A stretch of DNA of 64,000 nt from Anaerolineales bacterium (GTDB taxonomy: Bacteria; Chloroflexota; Anaerolineae; Anaerolineales; Villigracilaceae), in contig JAGUZU010000115.1 of NCBI GenBank assembly GCA_020060625.1, positions 1-64,000 on the forward strand. The letters are read 5' to 3'. Below, piece by piece: positions 1-54,581 of the stretch. The stretch's first letter is position 1; each line of letters starts with the position of its first letter. Position numbers and translations under genes: made by a program. A model generated the notes under the pieces. The model made no database searches. It was not told the DNA's origin and saw nothing but the letters and a program-made list of their open reading frames with translations.

Positions 1-980
<980 letters not shown>

Positions 981-2943: not shown

Positions 2944-4500
2944 CTACTCATCCATATCCACGATCTCGCCACCATGCTGGATCGCGGCGGCGACCATGCC
3001 GTCTTGCGAAACGTGCGCGGGGAGTTTGCCTTTGGCGTTGGTGACCACACAGCGCACAGACAAATCCACATGGAAGTGGTCTTTGATGAGGCGCTGGATG
3101 GTTTCGATCTGGTCGGGTTTGTTGAGTTTTTCCACCAGCACGTCGCTTGCCATGCCGAGGATGAGGGTCTTGCCTTGCACGTCGATCATCTTGACCGAGT
3201 TCATCAACGCGCCGAGATTTGCCTGGGCTTTGGGAAGCGTGTTGATGAGCGACTTCCACGCTTTGACGATGTCGCCCGAGTTGAGCGCTGGCTTCTCTTC
3301 GGGACTCAACGCTTCTTTCTTAACTTCGGGCTTGGATTCTGCTGCGGGAGCGGATACAGGCTCGGGCGGAGTCCGAGGCGCCCCCCCTTGCGTCCCCCCC
3401 AAGGTTGGGGGGGATTGAGGGGGGGTATCGTCCACGATCTCCGCAAGGGCGAGTTCCAGACTCAAAGAGGGCTGCCATCCGCCTCTTAGATCTGTCGCCG
3501 CATTGTTGAATATTTTCATCATGCGCAGAACATCTGTGGACGTGAACGCTTTGGCGTGCGACTCCATTTGGGTTTTGACTTCGCGCGTGGCTTCGACTTG
3601 CTCGGCGTTGCCCATTTGAATGAGCATCAGCCCGCGCAGGTATTCGACAATTTGACGCGCCAGCGAGCGGGGATCGGCTCCCGAATCGAGGGCGTGATGG
3701 ATGGTTTCGAGTCCGCGCGCGGGTTGATGGTCGAGGATGGAGGCGATGACATCCAGAACGGTTTGGCTGGTAGCCGTGCCGAGGACTTGCTGCGCGAGAG
3801 CAAGCGTAATTTTTGTACCCGTGGAAGAAAGCTGGTCGAGCAGCGATTGCGCGTCGCGCATTCCACCCGCTGATTGACGGGCGATGAGCGTGAGCGCTTC
3901 TTCGTCGGCTTGGATGTTTTCGGAGGCGGCGATTTCTTTTAAGTTGGAAACAATTTCATCAACGGGGACGCGGCGGAACTCGTGGCGCTGACAACGTGAG
4001 AGTACTGTCGCGGGGATTTTATGAATTTCAGTCGTCGCCAAAACGAAGATGGCATGAGGCGGGGGTTCTTCGAGAGTCTTAAGAAGCGCGTTGAATGCTC
4101 CGCCCGACATCATGTGAACTTCATCGATAATATAGACTTTATATTTTCCCTGTGTGGGAGCGAAATTTATCTTATCCCGCAAATCTCTGACATCGTCAAC
4201 GCCATTATTCGAAGCCGCGTCAATTTCGATCAAATCCATAAAGCGATTTTCGTTGACGGCTTTGCAGTGATCACATTCGTTGCACGGACGTTGTTTTGGG
4301 TCTTCGTTGAGACAGTTGACCGCCTTCGCCAGCAAGCGCGCGACGGTGGTCTTGCCCGTTCCACGCGGACCTGCAAAAAGGTAGGCGTGACCGACTCGGT
4401 CTGCCTTGATGGAGTTGGTCAACGTCTGGATGACGTGATCTTGTCCGATGACGGTGTCCCATTGTTTGGGACGGTACTTGCGGTAGAGGGCTTGGGTCAT
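2944..4500 (-). CDS. dnaX: DNA polymerase III subunit gamma/tau
   Basis: YRKYRPKQWDTVIGQDHVIQTL, Walker A GPRGTGKTTVARLLAKAVNC, zinc-binding CNECDHC. Confidence 0.96.
   Translation of the reverse strand: MTQALYRKYRPKQWDTVIGQDHVIQTLTNSIKADRVGHAYLFAGPRGTGKTTVARLLAKAVNCLNEDPKQRPCNECDHCKAVNENRFMDLIEIDAASNNGVDDVRDLRDKINFAPTQGKYKVYIIDEVHMMSGGAFNALLKTLEEPPPHAIFVLATTEIHKIPATVLSRCQRHEFRRVPVDEIVSNLKEIAASENIQADEEALTLIARQSAGGMRDAQSLLDQLSSTGTKITLALAQQVLGTATSQTVLDVIASILDHQPARGLETIHHALDSGADPRSLARQIVEYLRGLMLIQMGNAEQVEATREVKTQMESHAKAFTSTDVLRMMKIFNNAATDLRGGWQPSLSLELALAEIVDDTPPQSPPTLGGTQGGAPRTPPEPVSAPAAESKPEVKKEALSPEEKPALNSGDIVKAWKSLINTLPKAQANLGALMNSVKMIDVQGKTLILGMASDVLVEKLNKPDQIETIQRLIKDHFHVDLSVRCVVTNAKGKLPAHVSQDGMVAAAIQHGGEIVDMDE
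3381..3426. repeat. G/C-tract palindromic element embedded in dnaX
   Basis: ccccccttgcgtcccccccaaggttgggggggattgagggggg; translates as PPQSPPTLGGTQGG in the variable tau region. Confidence 0.75.
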
Positions 4501-29932: not shown

Positions 29933-32407
29933 TTACTCTTCCTCTTGCGCCTCTTCCTTTGGCAATTTCTTTGGCTTCGGCGGGCTGACAACCGCCTGCT
30001 TGCTAAGCGCGATCTCCAGCACCTCGTCCATGTGCTTGACGGGGATGATCTTCAATTCGGATTTTGCAGTCTTGGGCAGGTCCACCAAATCCTTGAGATT
30101 CTTCTCAGGCAGGATGACCGTTTTCAGTCCGGCGCGATGCGCGGCAAGGACTTTTTCGCGAACACCGCCAATCGGAAGCACCCGTCCGCGCAGGGTGATT
30201 TCGCCTGTCATGCCGACGTGACGATGTACGGGGCGTCCCGTCAATGCCGAGACGATTGCCGTCGCCATTGTGATGCCTGCGGACGGTCCATCCTTCGGGA
30301 TGCCGCCTTCGGGCATGTGAATGTGAATATCGAAGCGCTCGAACACTTCCATGTCAATCTTCAACACTGCCGCGCGCGATTTGATGTAGGTCAGCGCGGC
30401 ATGCGCCGACTCCTGCATCACCTCACCCATCTGACCGGTCATCTGCACGCCGCCCTTGCCTTCGAGAATGGCAACTTCCACAGACATGATCTCGCCGCCG
30501 TTTTCCGTCCATGCCAGGCTGGTGGTCACGCCGACTTCATCCGTCTGCTCGGCTTCGGGCGGAATGATCTGCTGCGGTCCGAGGAGTTTTTCGATCATCG
30601 CGGCAGTGATCGCGGCGGGATACTTCTTCCCTTCCGCTTTCATGCGCGCGACTTTGCGGCAGACGCGTCCGATCTCGCGCTCCAAATTGCGGACGCCCGC
30701 TTCATACGTGTACTCGCGGATGATTCGCTGCAACGCGGGGATTTCGAATGTCACGCCAAGTTCTTCGATGCCGTTCTCTTCGATCTGGCGCGGGATGAGA
30801 TAACGGTTGGCGATCTCGATCTTTTCCTCTTCGATGTAACCGGGAAATTCGATCACTTCCATGCGGTCGAGAAGCGGAGAGGGAATGCTGCCCAATGAAT
30901 TCGCCGTCGTTATGAACATCACCTTGGACAAGTCAAACGGCAGTTCGAGGTAGTGGTCGCTGAAGGCGTAGTTCTGCTCCGGGTCCAGCACTTCAAGCAT
31001 CGCCGAGGCGGGATCGCCGCGGAAGTCCGAATACAGTTTATCAATCTCATCCAGCATGAAGAGCGGATTGGACGTGCCAGCCCGCTTCATCGTCTGGATG
31101 ATGCGACCGGGCAGCGCGCCGATGTACGTGCGGCGGTGTCCGCGAATCTCGGCTTCGTCACGCACGCCGCCCAGCGACACGCGCGCGAACTTGCGTCCCA
31201 GCGCGTCGGCGATGGAACGCCCAAGCGAGGTCTTCCCCACCCCGGGCGGACCGACGAAGCACAGGATCGGCTGGCGTTCCTTTTTGGGCTTCAACGAGCG
31301 TACCGCAATGTATTCAAGGATGCGATCCTTGGCTTTCTTCAAACCATAATGATCGCGGTCGAGGGTTTTCGCGGCGTTCTTCACATCGAGATTATCCGGC
31401 GTGGAATTGCTCCACGGCAGGTCGAGGATCCAGTCAATGTACGTGCGGATGATTCCCACTTCAGGAGCCATGGGCGGCATCTGGTTGAGGCGTTCCAACT
31501 CCTTGAACGCGACCTTCTTCGCTTCTTCGGGCAGGTTCGCCTCTTCCAACTTCTTCTTCAATTCCACCGCATCGCGCGTGAAGATATCGCCTTCGCCCAA
31601 CTCGGTCTGAATCTGCTTCATCTGTTCGCGCAGATAAAATTCACGCTGGCTTTTATCCACTTCGTTTTGAACACGCGCGTGAATCTCGTCCTCCAGTTCC
31701 AGCACATCCACTTCCTGGGCGAGCAGGTTGTTCAATTGGGTCAATCGCATCTTGGGATCGAGGATCAACAACAGGCGCAGTTTGGCTTCGTACGTCAACG
31801 CCAAAGACGTGGCGATCATATCCGCCAGCCAGCCTGGCTCCGAAATATTCAACGCGTACAAATGCGCCTCTTCGGGAATCGAGCGATCCAGTTGAATGCA
31901 CCGCTCGAACGAACTCAACACCGAGCGCATCAATGCCTGTGTTTGCCTGTCTGCCGTGGATGGTTCATGGATGATCCGCGCGCGCACCTTGATATACGGT
32001 TTCACGCGCGCAAATTCCACGATCTCCACGCGGCGGCGTCCCTGCACCAGCGCGGAACGCGAGCCATCGGGCATGGTCAGCAGGCGCCCGACTGCCATCT
32101 CCACGCCAATCGGCAAAAAGTCCTCCATGCCGGGATCATCCACATCCGGGTCGCGCTGGGTCAAACCAATGACGGTCTGTTCACTGCGCTGCGCCTCATG
32201 CAATGCCAATAACGAAGCCTCGCGCCCTACAAAAATCGGCGAGACCATGCGCGGGAACACCACCATGTCGCGTAACGGTAAAACAACCGCCTCGATCAAA
32301 CCGTCGGCGTTCGGCTCCATATTGGGAATCCGATACAGTTCCTCGGTTCGTTGGGAGAGCGTCAGGTCGAAATTATCTTCTTCTTCTTGCCATGTCGGTT
32401 GGGTCAT
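29933..32407 (-). CDS. lon: ATP-dependent protease Lon
   Basis: FVGPPGVGKTSLGRSIADALGRKFARVSLGGVRDEAEIRGHRRTYIGALPG; catalytic PKDGPSAGITM. Confidence 0.97.
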   Translation of the reverse strand: MTQPTWQEEEDNFDLTLSQRTEELYRIPNMEPNADGLIEAVVLPLRDMVVFPRMVSPIFVGREASLLALHEAQRSEQTVIGLTQRDPDVDDPGMEDFLPIGVEMAVGRLLTMPDGSRSALVQGRRRVEIVEFARVKPYIKVRARIIHEPSTADRQTQALMRSVLSSFERCIQLDRSIPEEAHLYALNISEPGWLADMIATSLALTYEAKLRLLLILDPKMRLTQLNNLLAQEVDVLELEDEIHARVQNEVDKSQREFYLREQMKQIQTELGEGDIFTRDAVELKKKLEEANLPEEAKKVAFKELERLNQMPPMAPEVGIIRTYIDWILDLPWSNSTPDNLDVKNAAKTLDRDHYGLKKAKDRILEYIAVRSLKPKKERQPILCFVGPPGVGKTSLGRSIADALGRKFARVSLGGVRDEAEIRGHRRTYIGALPGRIIQTMKRAGTSNPLFMLDEIDKLYSDFRGDPASAMLEVLDPEQNYAFSDHYLELPFDLSKVMFITTANSLGSIPSPLLDRMEVIEFPGYIEEEKIEIANRYLIPRQIEENGIEELGVTFEIPALQRIIREYTYEAGVRNLEREIGRVCRKVARMKAEGKKYPAAITAAMIEKLLGPQQIIPPEAEQTDEVGVTTSLAWTENGGEIMSVEVAILEGKGGVQMTGQMGEVMQESAHAALTYIKSRAAVLKIDMEVFERFDIHIHMPEGGIPKDGPSAGITMATAIVSALTGRPVHRHVGMTGEITLRGRVLPIGGVREKVLAAHRAGLKTVILPEKNLKDLVDLPKTAKSELKIIPVKHMDEVLEIALSKQAVVSPPKPKKLPKEEAQEEE

Positions 32408-33707
32408 TCAAAACTTTCCATTCTCTCATTACTTCCGCGGTCACGAACATCGAACCGGCGGATAACACAATGCTACCATCTTTTGACGACATTTCCAGCG
32501 CGTGACGCAGCGCTTCCCTGACGGGAACCACCGCCTCCGACTCCACCCCAGCCTGCCCGGCGAGACCCTGAATATGCTCCACGCTCAAAGCCCGCGGATG
32601 ATCGGCTCGCGTGACGATGAGTTTCCTGATCTTCGGTCTCATCGCTTCAAACATGCCGGGAATGTTCTTATCCTCCGACGCGCCAAAGATGAGATAGACG
32701 GGTTTGCCGGGGAAATAGGTCTCCAGCGTTTCGCTCAGCCTGGAAAACGAATCCTGATTATGGGCGGAATCAAATATCAGCGGAGGGTCGAGGCGGGCGA
32801 CCTCGAAACGGGCGCGCCACTGCGTTTGAGCAAATCCCGCTTGGATGTGCTCATCCGAAATTCGAATCCCGCTGGCTTTCAAAGCTGCGTATGCTGTCGC
32901 CGCGTTCTCGATCTGGTGAGCGCCGAGCAGCGGAATTTTGAACGCTTCGCGTGAATTTTGAATTCTGAATTTTTGCCCCGCCAAAGACGCCTCGATCAAC
33001 TCAAACATTATGTCTTTGCCAACCAGCGTGAACTCGCAATTCTTTGATTTGGCTGCGCGCAGGAGAACTTCGAGCGCCTCATCCACTTGCGGGGCAGAGA
33101 CAACCGGCACGCCTTCTTTGATGATGCCCGCCTTCTCGCCCGCGATGAGCGTCAGCGTGTTGCCCAGCACCGCCGTATGGTCATACGAAAGCGACGTGAT
33201 AACTGAAACCTTCGGCGTGACAACGTTGGTCGCATCCAGCCTGCCGCCCAAGCCGACTTCAAACACCGCCGCGTCCACACCGCTCTTTGCAAACGCCATG
33301 AATGCCAACGCAGTCGTAATTTCAAAGGTTGTGAGTTTGGGAATCTGCGCCACATACGGTTTGATCTCTTCCACCAACTCGATCAACAACTCATGCGAGA
33401 TCGGTTCTCCATTGATTTGGATTCGTTCGGTGTAGTCCAATAAGTGCGGCGATGTATATAAACCAACCTTATAACCTGCGGCTTGCAACCCCGAAGCGCA
33501 CAACGCCGAGACCGACCCTTTCCCCTTCGTCCCCGCCACGTGGATGATGGGATATTTCGCCTGCGGATTCCCGAGCGAGTTCATTAGCGCGAACATGCGG
33601 TCGAGGTTGAAATCCGCCTTCGCCAATTCGGACGAATGTTTCAGGCTATAATCCACGAAGGAATACAGGTAATCGAGGGCTTGGTTGTATCGGGTTTCGA
33701 TGTCCAT
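32373..33707 (-). CDS. folC: Folylpolyglutamate synthase / dihydrofolate synthase
   Basis: IHVAGTKGKGSVSALCASGLQAAGYKVGLYTSPHL; LIFDSAHNQDSF. Start reset to MDIETRYNQALDYL. Confidence 0.94.
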   Translation of the reverse strand: MDIETRYNQALDYLYSFVDYSLKHSSELAKADFNLDRMFALMNSLGNPQAKYPIIHVAGTKGKGSVSALCASGLQAAGYKVGLYTSPHLLDYTERIQINGEPISHELLIELVEEIKPYVAQIPKLTTFEITTALAFMAFAKSGVDAAVFEVGLGGRLDATNVVTPKVSVITSLSYDHTAVLGNTLTLIAGEKAGIIKEGVPVVSAPQVDEALEVLLRAAKSKNCEFTLVGKDIMFELIEASLAGQKFRIQNSREAFKIPLLGAHQIENAATAYAALKASGIRISDEHIQAGFAQTQWRARFEVARLDPPLIFDSAHNQDSFSRLSETLETYFPGKPVYLIFGASEDKNIPGMFEAMRPKIRKLIVTRADHPRALSVEHIQGLAGQAGVESEAVVPVREALRHALEMSSKDGSIVLSAGSMFVTAEVMREWKVLNDPTDMARRRR

Positions 33708-33717
33708 GATTGGGATT

Positions 33718-33756: not shown

Positions 33757-33791
33757 TGCTCGCCACCCTCGCCATCCATCTCCGCATCCCC
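33757..33791 (+). repeat. 35-bp direct repeat, copy 1 (5' fragment of the DUF503 gene)
   Basis: TGCTCGCCACCCTCGCCATCCATCTCCGCATCCCC, identical to 34589-34623. Confidence 0.95.
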
Positions 33792-33843
33792 GCTGGCACA
33801 GTTATCGAAAGCTGCATTTTGTTTTGAAGTAAAATAAGCAAGC

Positions 33844-34239
33844 ATGAAAAAAACACCCCCTTCCAAACCCCGCAAGGTAAAAGAAGCGACAATCGAATAT
33901 GCTGTGAGGAAAATCAAGGTTAATTCGGCGGTTGTCAGGGAGCGGATTCCCTTTGACCCCAAAAAGATCGCCGCATTCTGTAAACGCTGGAAGATCTCGG
34001 AATTTTCCTTTTTCGGTTCCGTCCTGCGGGAGGATTTTCGTCCCGACAGTGATGTGGATGTGCTTGTCAGTTTTGAGCCAAATGCGGGATGGAGCCTCTT
34101 CGATTTGGTATCCATGCAGGAAGAACTGGAAGTCATGTTCAAACGCAAAGTGGATTTGGTCGAAAAGGAAGCGATACGTAATCCATACCGCCGTCACGCC
34201 ATCCTTGCCGGACGGGAGATTATTCATGCGATCAACTGA
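33844..34239 (+). CDS. MNT-domain nucleotidyltransferase antitoxin (MntA-like)
   Basis: GSVLREDFRPDSDVDV fits the GSX10DXD motif; followed by a HEPN gene. Confidence 0.9.
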   Translation: MKKTPPSKPRKVKEATIEYAVRKIKVNSAVVRERIPFDPKKIAAFCKRWKISEFSFFGSVLREDFRPDSDVDVLVSFEPNAGWSLFDLVSMQEELEVMFKRKVDLVEKEAIRNPYRRHAILAGREIIHAIN

Positions 34240-34585
34240 ACGGGATGCGGCATATATTTGGGACATGCTCGATGCCGCCCGAAATATTCAAAGTTTCATG
34301 TCCGGGATGCGATATGAGGAATTTCTAAAGGACATAAAACTTCAGTATGCGATTGAGCGCTGCGTGGAAATCATGGGGGAGGCACCCCGTCGCATTTCAG
34401 ATGAACTGAAAGAAAATCACCCCGAAATTCCGTGGGGACGTATCATCGCCCAACGGAATGTGATCGCTCACGAATATGACGACGTCAAGCAGGAACGAAT
34501 GTGGCTGATTGCCACTGTTCATGCTCCTGCTTTGATCCCCGATTTGGAAGCCATCCTTCCTCCTCTCCCGCCGCAAATCGAATAA
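34226..34585 (+). CDS. HEPN-domain toxin (HepT-like)
   Basis: RNVIAHEY fits RX4HXY; DUF86-like; overlaps mntA. Confidence 0.9.
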   Translation: MRSTERDAAYIWDMLDAARNIQSFMSGMRYEEFLKDIKLQYAIERCVEIMGEAPRRISDELKENHPEIPWGRIIAQRNVIAHEYDDVKQERMWLIATVHAPALIPDLEAILPPLPPQIE

Positions 34586-34587
34586 CC

Positions 34588-34869
34588 TTGCTCGCCACCC
34601 TCGCCATCCATCTCCGCATCCCCCTCTGCGCCTCGCTCAAAGACAAGCGCGGACGGATCAAGCCGCTCATCTCGCGTTTGCGGCGCGAGTTCAACGTCTC
34701 TGTGGCGGAGATGGACTTGCACGACAAATGGGATGAAGCCGTCATCGTCTGCGCGATGGTGGGAAACGACCACGCCTTTTTACAATCCGCGCTGCAAAAT
34801 GTGGCAAAATGGGTGGAATCCAACTGGACGGATGGGGACGTCTGGGATACAAAGATCGAGATGGTTTGA
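34588..34869 (+). CDS. DUF503 family protein
   Basis: LLATLAIHLRIPLCASLKDKRGRIKPLISRLRREFNVSVAEMDLHDKWDEAVI; TTG start. Confidence 0.85.
   Translation: MLATLAIHLRIPLCASLKDKRGRIKPLISRLRREFNVSVAEMDLHDKWDEAVIVCAMVGNDHAFLQSALQNVAKWVESNWTDGDVWDTKIEMV
34589..34623 (+). repeat. 35-bp direct repeat, copy 2
   Basis: Identical to 33757-33791; forms the 5' end of the intact DUF503 gene. Confidence 0.95.
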
Positions 34870-52992: not shown

Positions 52993-53048
52993 TATAGATG
53001 ACGCTAAAAAACAGCGTCATGAAACCATTCTTAATAAGGAGCGAAGAA

Positions 53049-54581
53049 ATGAAGAAACTGCATTTTGTATTTGCGGCGTTGATCACGGCGGCATTGATCC
53101 TGGCTGCCTGCGCCCCCGCCGCAACCAGCCAGCCTCCGCCCGCAGCCGCCACCGAGGTCCCGGCGGAGGAATCAACCGAGGTCCAGGAAGAGGCGCTGCC
53201 CGTCGAGGAGGAGGCCGGTTTGTGGACCCAGGATTACATCACGCAGGTTCCGCCCATCATGATGATTGATCCGTATTTCCAGATCTTCGGACAGTCGCAA
53301 ACAGCGGTCCCCTACACGTATGAAAATGCCGTGAAACTCGCCGGGCATTCCTGCGGCGCAACCGCGGGCGCATGGACGATTGCGCGCAAGGCGCTTGAAG
53401 CACTGTATCCCGACGGGGAAATTCCCGTGCGCGGGCAGATCGCGGTGGAAGCCCCGGGCGCTGAAGATGAGTGGTTCGTGGGGGTGTTTGGCGAGGTGAT
53501 CACCTTCGTGACCGGCGCATCTCCCAAGACTGGCTTCATCGGCGCGGAGTTCGGACAGACGAACAATCTCTTTGTGCGCCAGAACAAAATGACCTATCCC
53601 GATGAGCCAACCGGCACGCCTCCCCCCCAAATGGAGTGGGTTTTCACTCGCCTGGATACCGGCGCGAAAGTGGGCGTGAATTTCAACCTGGCAGTCATCA
53701 CCCCTGTGGCAACCCCCGAACGCCAGGAAATGGGCAAGAAGATGGCGGCTGGCACAGCCACACCCGAAGAAGCGGCTGATTACTACGAATACTGGAATGC
53801 CAGGGCAAAATTCGTCTTCGAAAATGCGGACACCTTGGAGGGCTTCTTCAACGTCAAAGTCTACCAGGAGCCGACTACCGCCCCCGATGCGAACATAAAA
53901 AAGACTGCGCCTGCCTCGGCTGAATCTTTTGCCTGGGAGCAGGATTACATTACCGAGGTTCCGCCAATCATGATGAGCGAACCGTATTTCGACATCTTCG
54001 GGCAGACCGCGGGTCCGGTCCCATACTATTATGAGGAGGCCGTCAGGTTAGCCGGGCATTCCTGCGGCGCAACCACTGGCGCGTGGATCATCACCCGCAA
54101 GGCGCTTGAAGCGTTGTATCCCGACGGGGAAATTCCCGTGCGTGGTCAAATCGCGGTGGAAGCCCCGGGTGCCGAAGATGAATGGTTTGTCGGCGTGTTC
54201 GGCGAAATCATCACCTTTGTCACCGGCGCATCGCCTCACACCGGCTTCATTGGCTCCGAGTTTGGACAGGTCAACGACCTCTTTGTGCGCCAGAACAAAA
54301 TGGTCTATGCGGAAGAACCGACCGGACAACTCCCCCCGATGCGGGAATGGATATTTACACGGCTGGATACGGGCAAGAAAGTGGGGGTGAAATTCAACCT
54401 CGTAATCATCCTGCCGATCCCGACCCCGGCGCGAACGGAAATGGGCAAGAAAATGGCGGCTGGCACAGCCACGCCTGAAGAAGCGGCTGATTACCAGAAA
54501 TACTGGAATGACAGGGCGATATTCGTCCTGGATAATGCCGACATGGACGGCTTCTTCACCGTGACCGTTTACGAGGAGTAA
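53049..54581 (+). CDS. Lipoprotein with two tandem FmdE-like domains
   Basis: Lipobox LILAACAP; two about 237-aa repeats each with AGHSCGATxGAWxIxRKALEALYPDGEIPVRGQIAVEAPGAEDEWFVGVFGE(V/I)ITFVTGASP. Confidence 0.65.
   Translation: MKKLHFVFAALITAALILAACAPAATSQPPPAAATEVPAEESTEVQEEALPVEEEAGLWTQDYITQVPPIMMIDPYFQIFGQSQTAVPYTYENAVKLAGHSCGATAGAWTIARKALEALYPDGEIPVRGQIAVEAPGAEDEWFVGVFGEVITFVTGASPKTGFIGAEFGQTNNLFVRQNKMTYPDEPTGTPPPQMEWVFTRLDTGAKVGVNFNLAVITPVATPERQEMGKKMAAGTATPEEAADYYEYWNARAKFVFENADTLEGFFNVKVYQEPTTAPDANIKKTAPASAESFAWEQDYITEVPPIMMSEPYFDIFGQTAGPVPYYYEEAVRLAGHSCGATTGAWIITRKALEALYPDGEIPVRGQIAVEAPGAEDEWFVGVFGEIITFVTGASPHTGFIGSEFGQVNDLFVRQNKMVYAEEPTGQLPPMREWIFTRLDTGKKVGVKFNLVIILPIPTPARTEMGKKMAAGTATPEEAADYQKYWNDRAIFVLDNADMDGFFTVTVYEE

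Follow-up and report, generated by a model that had tools for sequence, protein, structure and literature searches.

The 5′ end of the DUF503 gene is a recurrent entry site for small toxin-antitoxin and defence modules in one genus of Anaerolineales

Introduction

How can a small toxin-antitoxin (TA) module come to lie at the very start of a conserved gene while that gene stays intact? This question is raised by a contig of an Anaerolineales bacterium, in which an mntA-hepT pair is placed between two copies of the 5′ end of a DUF503 gene. The movement of solitary TA modules without a transposase between genomes is a long-standing open question. In the MntA-HepT family, HepT is an RNase toxin that MntA silences by nucleotidylation.

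A sequence-only reading of this locus had interpreted it as a TA cassette that was inserted at the DUF503 start with target duplication. Here, we analysed the locus in the window, that is, the whole stretch of 64,000 nucleotides, in 386 kb of the window's own genome (G000) and in a survey of 57 genomes from one Anaerolineales genus. The genomes are mostly metagenome assemblies, and the named relatives are Chloroflexi/Anaerolineales MAGs.

Results

An exact 35-bp repeat flanks an MNT/HEPN module

The sequence TGCTCGCCACCCTCGCCATCCATCTCCGCATCCCC (35 nt) occurs twice in exact form, at 33757-33791 and at 34589-34623 of the forward strand with a spacing of 832 bp, just as the sequence-only reading had described. 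The 386 kb were scanned for exact direct repeats of at least 20 bp at a spacing of 0.3-4 kb, and this repeat is the longest one found. The runners-up are at most 29 bp long and some of them are located within one internally duplicated ORF. At 52998-54581 the window contains a 527-aa ORF with two tandem copies of one domain, a period of 711 bp and several exact repeats of 20-28 bp.

The right copy is the functional 5′ end of the DUF503 gene (34588-34869, forward strand), the target of the insertion, which is intact, codes for 93 amino acids (Pfam PF04456, E 5e-28) and starts with TTG at 34588. The left copy, termed D′, reads as an ATG-LATLAIHLRIP stub. The base preceding the repeat is A at the left copy, resulting in ATG, and T at the right copy, resulting in TTG. 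The left flank is formed by a divergent folC-like gene on the reverse strand (32373-33708), which starts approximately 48 bp from D′.

The mntA-like gene (33844-34239, forward strand) encodes a minimal nucleotidyltransferase antitoxin of 131 aa (NTP_transf_2, PF01909, 1.5e-16), and the hepT-like gene (34226-34585, forward strand) a HEPN ribonuclease toxin of 119 aa (HepT-like, PF01934, 4.4e-23); the two reading frames overlap by 14 nt. The translations contain the MNT motif GSx10DxD in the form GSVLREDFRPDSDVD and the HEPN motif Rx4-6HxY in the form RNVIAHEY, with four residues between R and H. Both motifs are typical of MntA-HepT. These are the only genes recognised in the 832-bp unit, and the pair lies exactly between the copies, as had been claimed; PADLOC matched the MNT gene only. 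Upstream of mntA, positions 33818-33843 of the forward strand (TTTTGTTTTGAAGTAAAATAAGCAAGC) are the probable promoter or leader of the TA operon and match the type-1 modules of G019 and G053. A scan with the consensus sigma-70 promoter gave no match at 33818-33843, and a search for structured RNA in the region found none. At the right junction (34586-34588, forward strand) the hepT stop codon is located 2 bp before the DUF503 start codon, the first base of which is T, whereas the empty site has the host-type ATG. Judged by its sequence, the pair is a regular representative of a known class of TA modules; what sets it apart is that it is placed at one gene start again and again. The same genome encodes another MNT/HEPN pair elsewhere, which is more distant (G000:C99:11198-11524; L114, L126).

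An insertion sequence or transposon was rejected as the vehicle: no transposase was recognised in the 832-bp unit and no inverted repeat was listed at its ends. An integrase-encoded genomic island was rejected as well, with no integrase in the window unit and none recognised in the cargo ORFs of the other inserts, about 18 of whose proteins were scanned with Pfam and the others read by eye.

The site is empty in the closest relative by DUF503 and occupied repeatedly in the genus

In G021, the closest genome by DUF503 (97% aa), folC is located 48 bp from DUF503, which is present in a single copy with an ATG start; this is the empty site that the sequence-only reading had proposed to look for. 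The alignment of G000 with G021 is continuous from folC through the leader to DUF503 position 35, and it is picked up again at the right copy. According to this alignment via the folC leader, D′ at 33757-33791 is most probably the displaced original start of the DUF503 gene. The empty site thus bears out the insertion, while the notion of a one-off 35-bp duplication was given up in favour of a recurrent hotspot with a segment of approximately 63-69 bp. The restoration of an intact DUF503 with a TTG start held as well, and TTG is also found in several insert-bearing relatives. In G067 (L070) the site is empty, yet DUF503 has a TTG start, which might be a scar or a plain mutation.

The folC-DUF503 gap could be measured in 41 of the 57 genomes, those with both genes on one stretch. 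The junction is empty or nearly so (30-147 bp) in 18 of the 41, and carries inserts of 0.6-4.6 kb in the other 23. A host tree of folC, DUF503, SDR and MurJ shows at least 11 changes between the insert and the empty state. In this genus, the DUF503 5′ end beside folC repeatedly serves small, self-contained TA/defence modules as their point of entry. With genomes that are mostly metagenome assemblies, an assembly artefact or a chance repeat comes to mind. It is hardly credible here: several assemblies that are independent of each other show the same architecture, in one case on a 3.1-Mb contig (G017), the positions include mid-contig ones, and no comparable repeat was found in 386 kb.

The junction carries different types of cargo

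Type-1 MNT/HEPN modules are located at the junction in G000, G017, G019, G053 and G061. A second MNT/HEPN family (type 2) is found in G050 and G065; G006, where the locus is close to a contig edge, has just the MNT gene of this type. A DUF433/DUF5615 pair is present in G017, G019, G049, G057 and G071; the Pfam matches of DUF433 and of DUF5615 are both slightly under the curated cut-off. DUF433 has been predicted to be the antitoxin of PIN-type toxins (PMC2701414). Further cargo includes MazE/VapC (G060), PIN (G001), several single membrane or unknown proteins, and a restriction-modification (R-M) type gene in G058 (L086; judged by eye). In G070 (L201, ~4200-4434) a fragment of an R-M gene lies at the contig end behind a DUF503 5′ piece of about 25 bp. 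Some inserts at the same site have no duplicated DUF503 copy (MazE/VapC in G060, G024, others). The TA cassette of the sequence-only reading is therefore one cargo among several, and not every insert comes with a duplication.

The cargo adjoining DUF503 is mostly oriented toward DUF503, and its stop codon is at most 4 bp from the DUF503 start in about 10 cases. No recombinase or integrase gene was recognised among the inserts, for which about 18 cargo proteins were scanned with Pfam and the rest judged by eye from translations. In G004 (L055) a Y1_Tnp-like transposase gene is located directly before DUF503 (-827 to -131 relative to DUF503), and a weak match to the DUF503 5′ end is found at -986.

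Close homologues of the type-1 HEPN protein (at least 75% aa) are all at the folC-DUF503 site (5/5), as are those of type 2 (at least 86%; 2/2), and DUF5615 is at this site in five of seven genomes. DUF433/DUF5615 modules at other loci (G005, G042) have no DUF503 copy. In other Anaerolineales, more distant relatives of type 1 (L141, L142) precede an M16-peptidase-like gene and have neither direct repeats nor a DUF503 copy. Since the same cargo families occur at other loci without D′, D′ belongs to the DUF503 site and not to the cargo family.

Truncated DUF503 copies define a longer repeat unit

Altogether, 10 truncated DUF503 5′ copies were identified in nine genomes (G000, G017, G049, G050, G053, G065, G070, G071 and two in G019); the short piece of G070 is located 170 bp from folC. 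The copies stand before two types of MNT/HEPN, the DUF433/DUF5615 pair or the R-M gene fragment. A genus-wide blastn search yielded no convincing DUF503 5′ copy away from the folC/DUF503 locus. The sequence-only reading had named two observations that would speak against it. A repeat that is not followed by a module was not found. A module without duplication was not seen in clean form; in G017 and G061 no DUF503 copy could be detected immediately to the left of the type-1 module, an arrangement that decay or displacement could explain.

In three genomes the copy ends at a defined position of DUF503, namely at 63 (G019), 65 (G017) and 64 (G053); the others end at approximately 66-69 or are degenerate. 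In the sister pair G061/G017, positions -666..64 of G061 correspond to -1569..-839 of G017, and 1..281 to 1..281. These alignment blocks mean that G017 carries an extra DUF433/DUF5615 module together with a duplicated DUF503 1-64. Such a clean 64-bp duplication, like the three copies that stop at 63-65 bp, fits a target-duplicating insertion, in which a long-stagger cut (or repair copying) duplicates about 63 bp of host DNA and decay or deletion later shortens the left copies. The own-lineage DUF503 ranks 1-4 of 48 as the match for D′ in six of eight copies, and the D′ copies of G053, G017 and G019a are mostly own-lineage-like along their full length; plain target duplication also predicts such copies. 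We nevertheless consider this explanation rather unlikely, because of the left ends of the modules.

Past position ~35, the D′ copies of G019″, G049, G050, G071 and, weakly, G000 continue into a common GCTGGCGCAGT-like sequence, which is followed by CTCAAAG. Between type-2 MNT/HEPN and DUF433/DUF5615 modules, the left-end segments give alignment scores of 19-49, far higher than the shuffle maxima of 12-16. Modules of unrelated type are alike down to the promoter; the DUF433 module of G019″ and the type-2 module of G050, for instance, score 49 with a shuffle maximum of 13. Left-end segments that are common to unrelated cargo types in different hosts argue against a mere duplication of host DNA.

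The window copy points in the same direction. Its first 35 positions match the genome's own DUF503 to 100% (best other genome 89%), whereas past position 35 D′ is no more similar to its own DUF503 than to that of other genomes. The plain target duplication proposed earlier does not account well for a left copy that is host-like over 1-35 only, which is unexpected for a transposase-style event. The bases beyond position 35 resemble a continuation of module type that has degenerated (GCTGGCACAGT-TATCGAAAGC). Positions 33792-33817 of the forward strand probably continue D′ on its 3′ side in degenerate form and contain the module-type motif GCTGGCRCAGT-NNNTCAAAG (compare the left module ends in G019, G049, G050 and G071); taken alone, this stretch has weak pairwise similarity to the other left-end motifs. 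The true repeat unit is approximately 63-69 bp of DUF503, of which the 35 bp in the window are the identical part. Since D′ is identical to the own DUF503 over 1-35 and its remainder is no closer to the own gene than to others, we read the window as the product of a crossover inside the D′ segment.

The leader between folC and DUF503 is one of six clusters of AT-rich intergenic repeats of the aaatcgNaaatcg form in 386 kb (25423, 33720 and 61796 in the window; L195), and similar sequence is found at the right end of the inserts in G006, G049, G057 and G071. This repeat was rejected as a recombination substrate, as it has only six clusters in 386 kb and is not specific. A viral origin of the DUF503-like site was rejected too, the degenerate pattern being absent from the viral collection. 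When the right DUF503 copy was compared with empty-pair controls, no clear sign for or against a foreign 5′ end emerged; the left-copy rows of G019, shifted by one base, were left out of this comparison.

Arrays of modules are reordered

Two genomes carry arrays. The order in G017 is MNT/HEPN - D′ - DUF433/DUF5615 - DUF503, and in G019 it is D″ - DUF433/DUF5615 - D′ - MNT/HEPN - DUF503. Type-1 MNT/HEPN and DUF433/DUF5615 are thus in opposite order in the two genomes, with D′ copies in between.

These arrays resemble integron arrays, and the DUF503 5′ copies occupy the places where attC sites would stand. An IntI-like integrase (TIGR02249) is over the cut-off in 34 of the 57 genus genomes (e.g. 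L204, L205, L206, L207), and chromosomal integrons seem to be common. Integron cassettes that were placed by IntI at a secondary site would also explain modules of one or two genes in mostly one orientation. This origin is very improbable for several reasons. Many inserts have the cargo stop 0-4 bp from the DUF503 start (2 bp in the window), which leaves no room for an attC. Of five DUF503 5′ copies, four are less well folded than their shuffles and one is better by a small margin, G000 (98% complete) has no IntI over the cut-off, and an attC-type insertion gives no ~63-bp duplication.

An exchange between strains by homology was considered as well. Here, incoming DNA with a module and DUF503 would recombine through DUF503 on the right and be joined illegitimately on the left, so that the gene start of the recipient stays behind in truncated form, and D′ and DUF503 would then serve as arms for cargo swaps. 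The right junction is indeed at or very near the DUF503 start and the left one variable (absent, 35 or 63-69 bp), and the sister species G050 and G071 are alike in the D′-promoter segment with different cargo. Random illegitimate joining, however, would not be expected to give the longer copies a left end that hardly varies, and we regard this course as improbable.

Discussion

The folC-DUF503 junction is a hotspot at which an empty site, a duplication of host sequence, arrays in reversed order and left-end segments common to unrelated cargo are found. We favour, with a slight balance of probability on its side, recurrent insertion with a long DUF503 5′-end duplication by a single crossover of a circle that carries this segment. 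A typical module would consist of a DUF503 5′ end of approximately 63-69 bp, a promoter and a TA operon, with its right end abutting the DUF503 start codon. A single crossover inside the DUF503 segment would link a circle that carries this segment and the module to the DUF503 gene of the chromosome. The result would be a truncated host gene start on the left and a complete DUF503, often with TTG, on the right, directly behind the last gene of the module. We infer that a reverse crossover between the copies could free the circle and bring back the empty site with its ATG, and repeated rounds would lead to arrays. The crossover may be the work of RecA, for which ~63 bp of identity would be enough in principle, or of another recombinase. 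The module may persist with the help of TA addiction and of its co-transcription with DUF503. In the sequences analysed, neither a recombinase nor a circle nor an excision product was seen.

A further reading, offered tentatively as a possibility, is cassette capture that is integrase-less (or trans-acting), with the DUF503 5′ end as the attachment site. Circular TA/defence modules with a DUF503-derived site of ~63-69 bp would enter, leave and stack in arrays, and the gene would always be restored.

Old presence followed by repeated loss could account for some of the pattern. The divergence of the cargo between species is about that of the host genes (nucleotide identities are similar), and for the type-1 module host-like relationships were not rejected in an AU test (p 0.106); horizontal transfer of this module was therefore not accepted on the basis of tree conflict. 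Repeated loss, brought about by recombination of D′ with DUF503, therefore has to be considered no less seriously than repeated gain. Several independent gains are still needed for the distinct cargo types and the opposite orders.

The start of a conserved gene may act as a reusable docking point without loss of the gene. The modules look like plug-in cassettes, many of them with a partial DUF503 copy on the far side, so that the gene is kept whole. One site in one genus combines empty sites, apparently fresh and decayed insertions and reordered arrays. Since all these states coexist there, the movement of TA modules becomes directly testable.

Comparison with known systems shows where the DUF503 site is ordinary and where it is not. 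The window module corresponds to described MntA-HepT modules (PMC2701414, PMC4621449) in gene order, sizes, NTase and HepT domains and the GSx10DxD and Rx4HxY motifs. We found no published account of such insertions at DUF503 in the open-access literature. Integrative elements of the SXT/R391 type enter the 5′ end of prfC and restore the gene. In both cases the target gene receives a new 5′ end from the end of the element and keeps its function, but the DUF503 units are only ~0.8-1 kb long and have no integrase or transfer genes. Chromosomal integron cassettes are likewise small co-oriented modules with a recombination-like segment in between and a reshuffled order. The DUF503 site differs in having no attC, attI or integrase at the locus, and its repeat is the 5′ end of a gene. 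If the cassette-capture reading is true, this would be integron-like gene collecting built on the start of a protein-coding gene.

The closest parallel concerns R-M genes, for which Nobusato et al. reportedly described insertion with long target duplication in 2000. Such R-M insertions have been characterised by "long and variable target duplications" (PMC3031569) and by a flanking direct repeat (PMC4978471). The likeness lies in a self-contained addictive module without its own transposase, a long direct repeat of host sequence (35 bp in the window and 63-69 bp in relatives) and a relative whose site is empty (G021 in the case of the window, G061 in that of the G017 module); in G070, moreover, an R-M gene fragment stands behind a DUF503 5′ copy. 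The DUF503 site differs in that its cargo consists mainly of TA pairs, the same gene start is used over and over, the longer repeats hardly vary in length (~63-69 bp) and arrays are formed; these four features are new. It also differs in that the target gene stays intact, often with an altered start codon.
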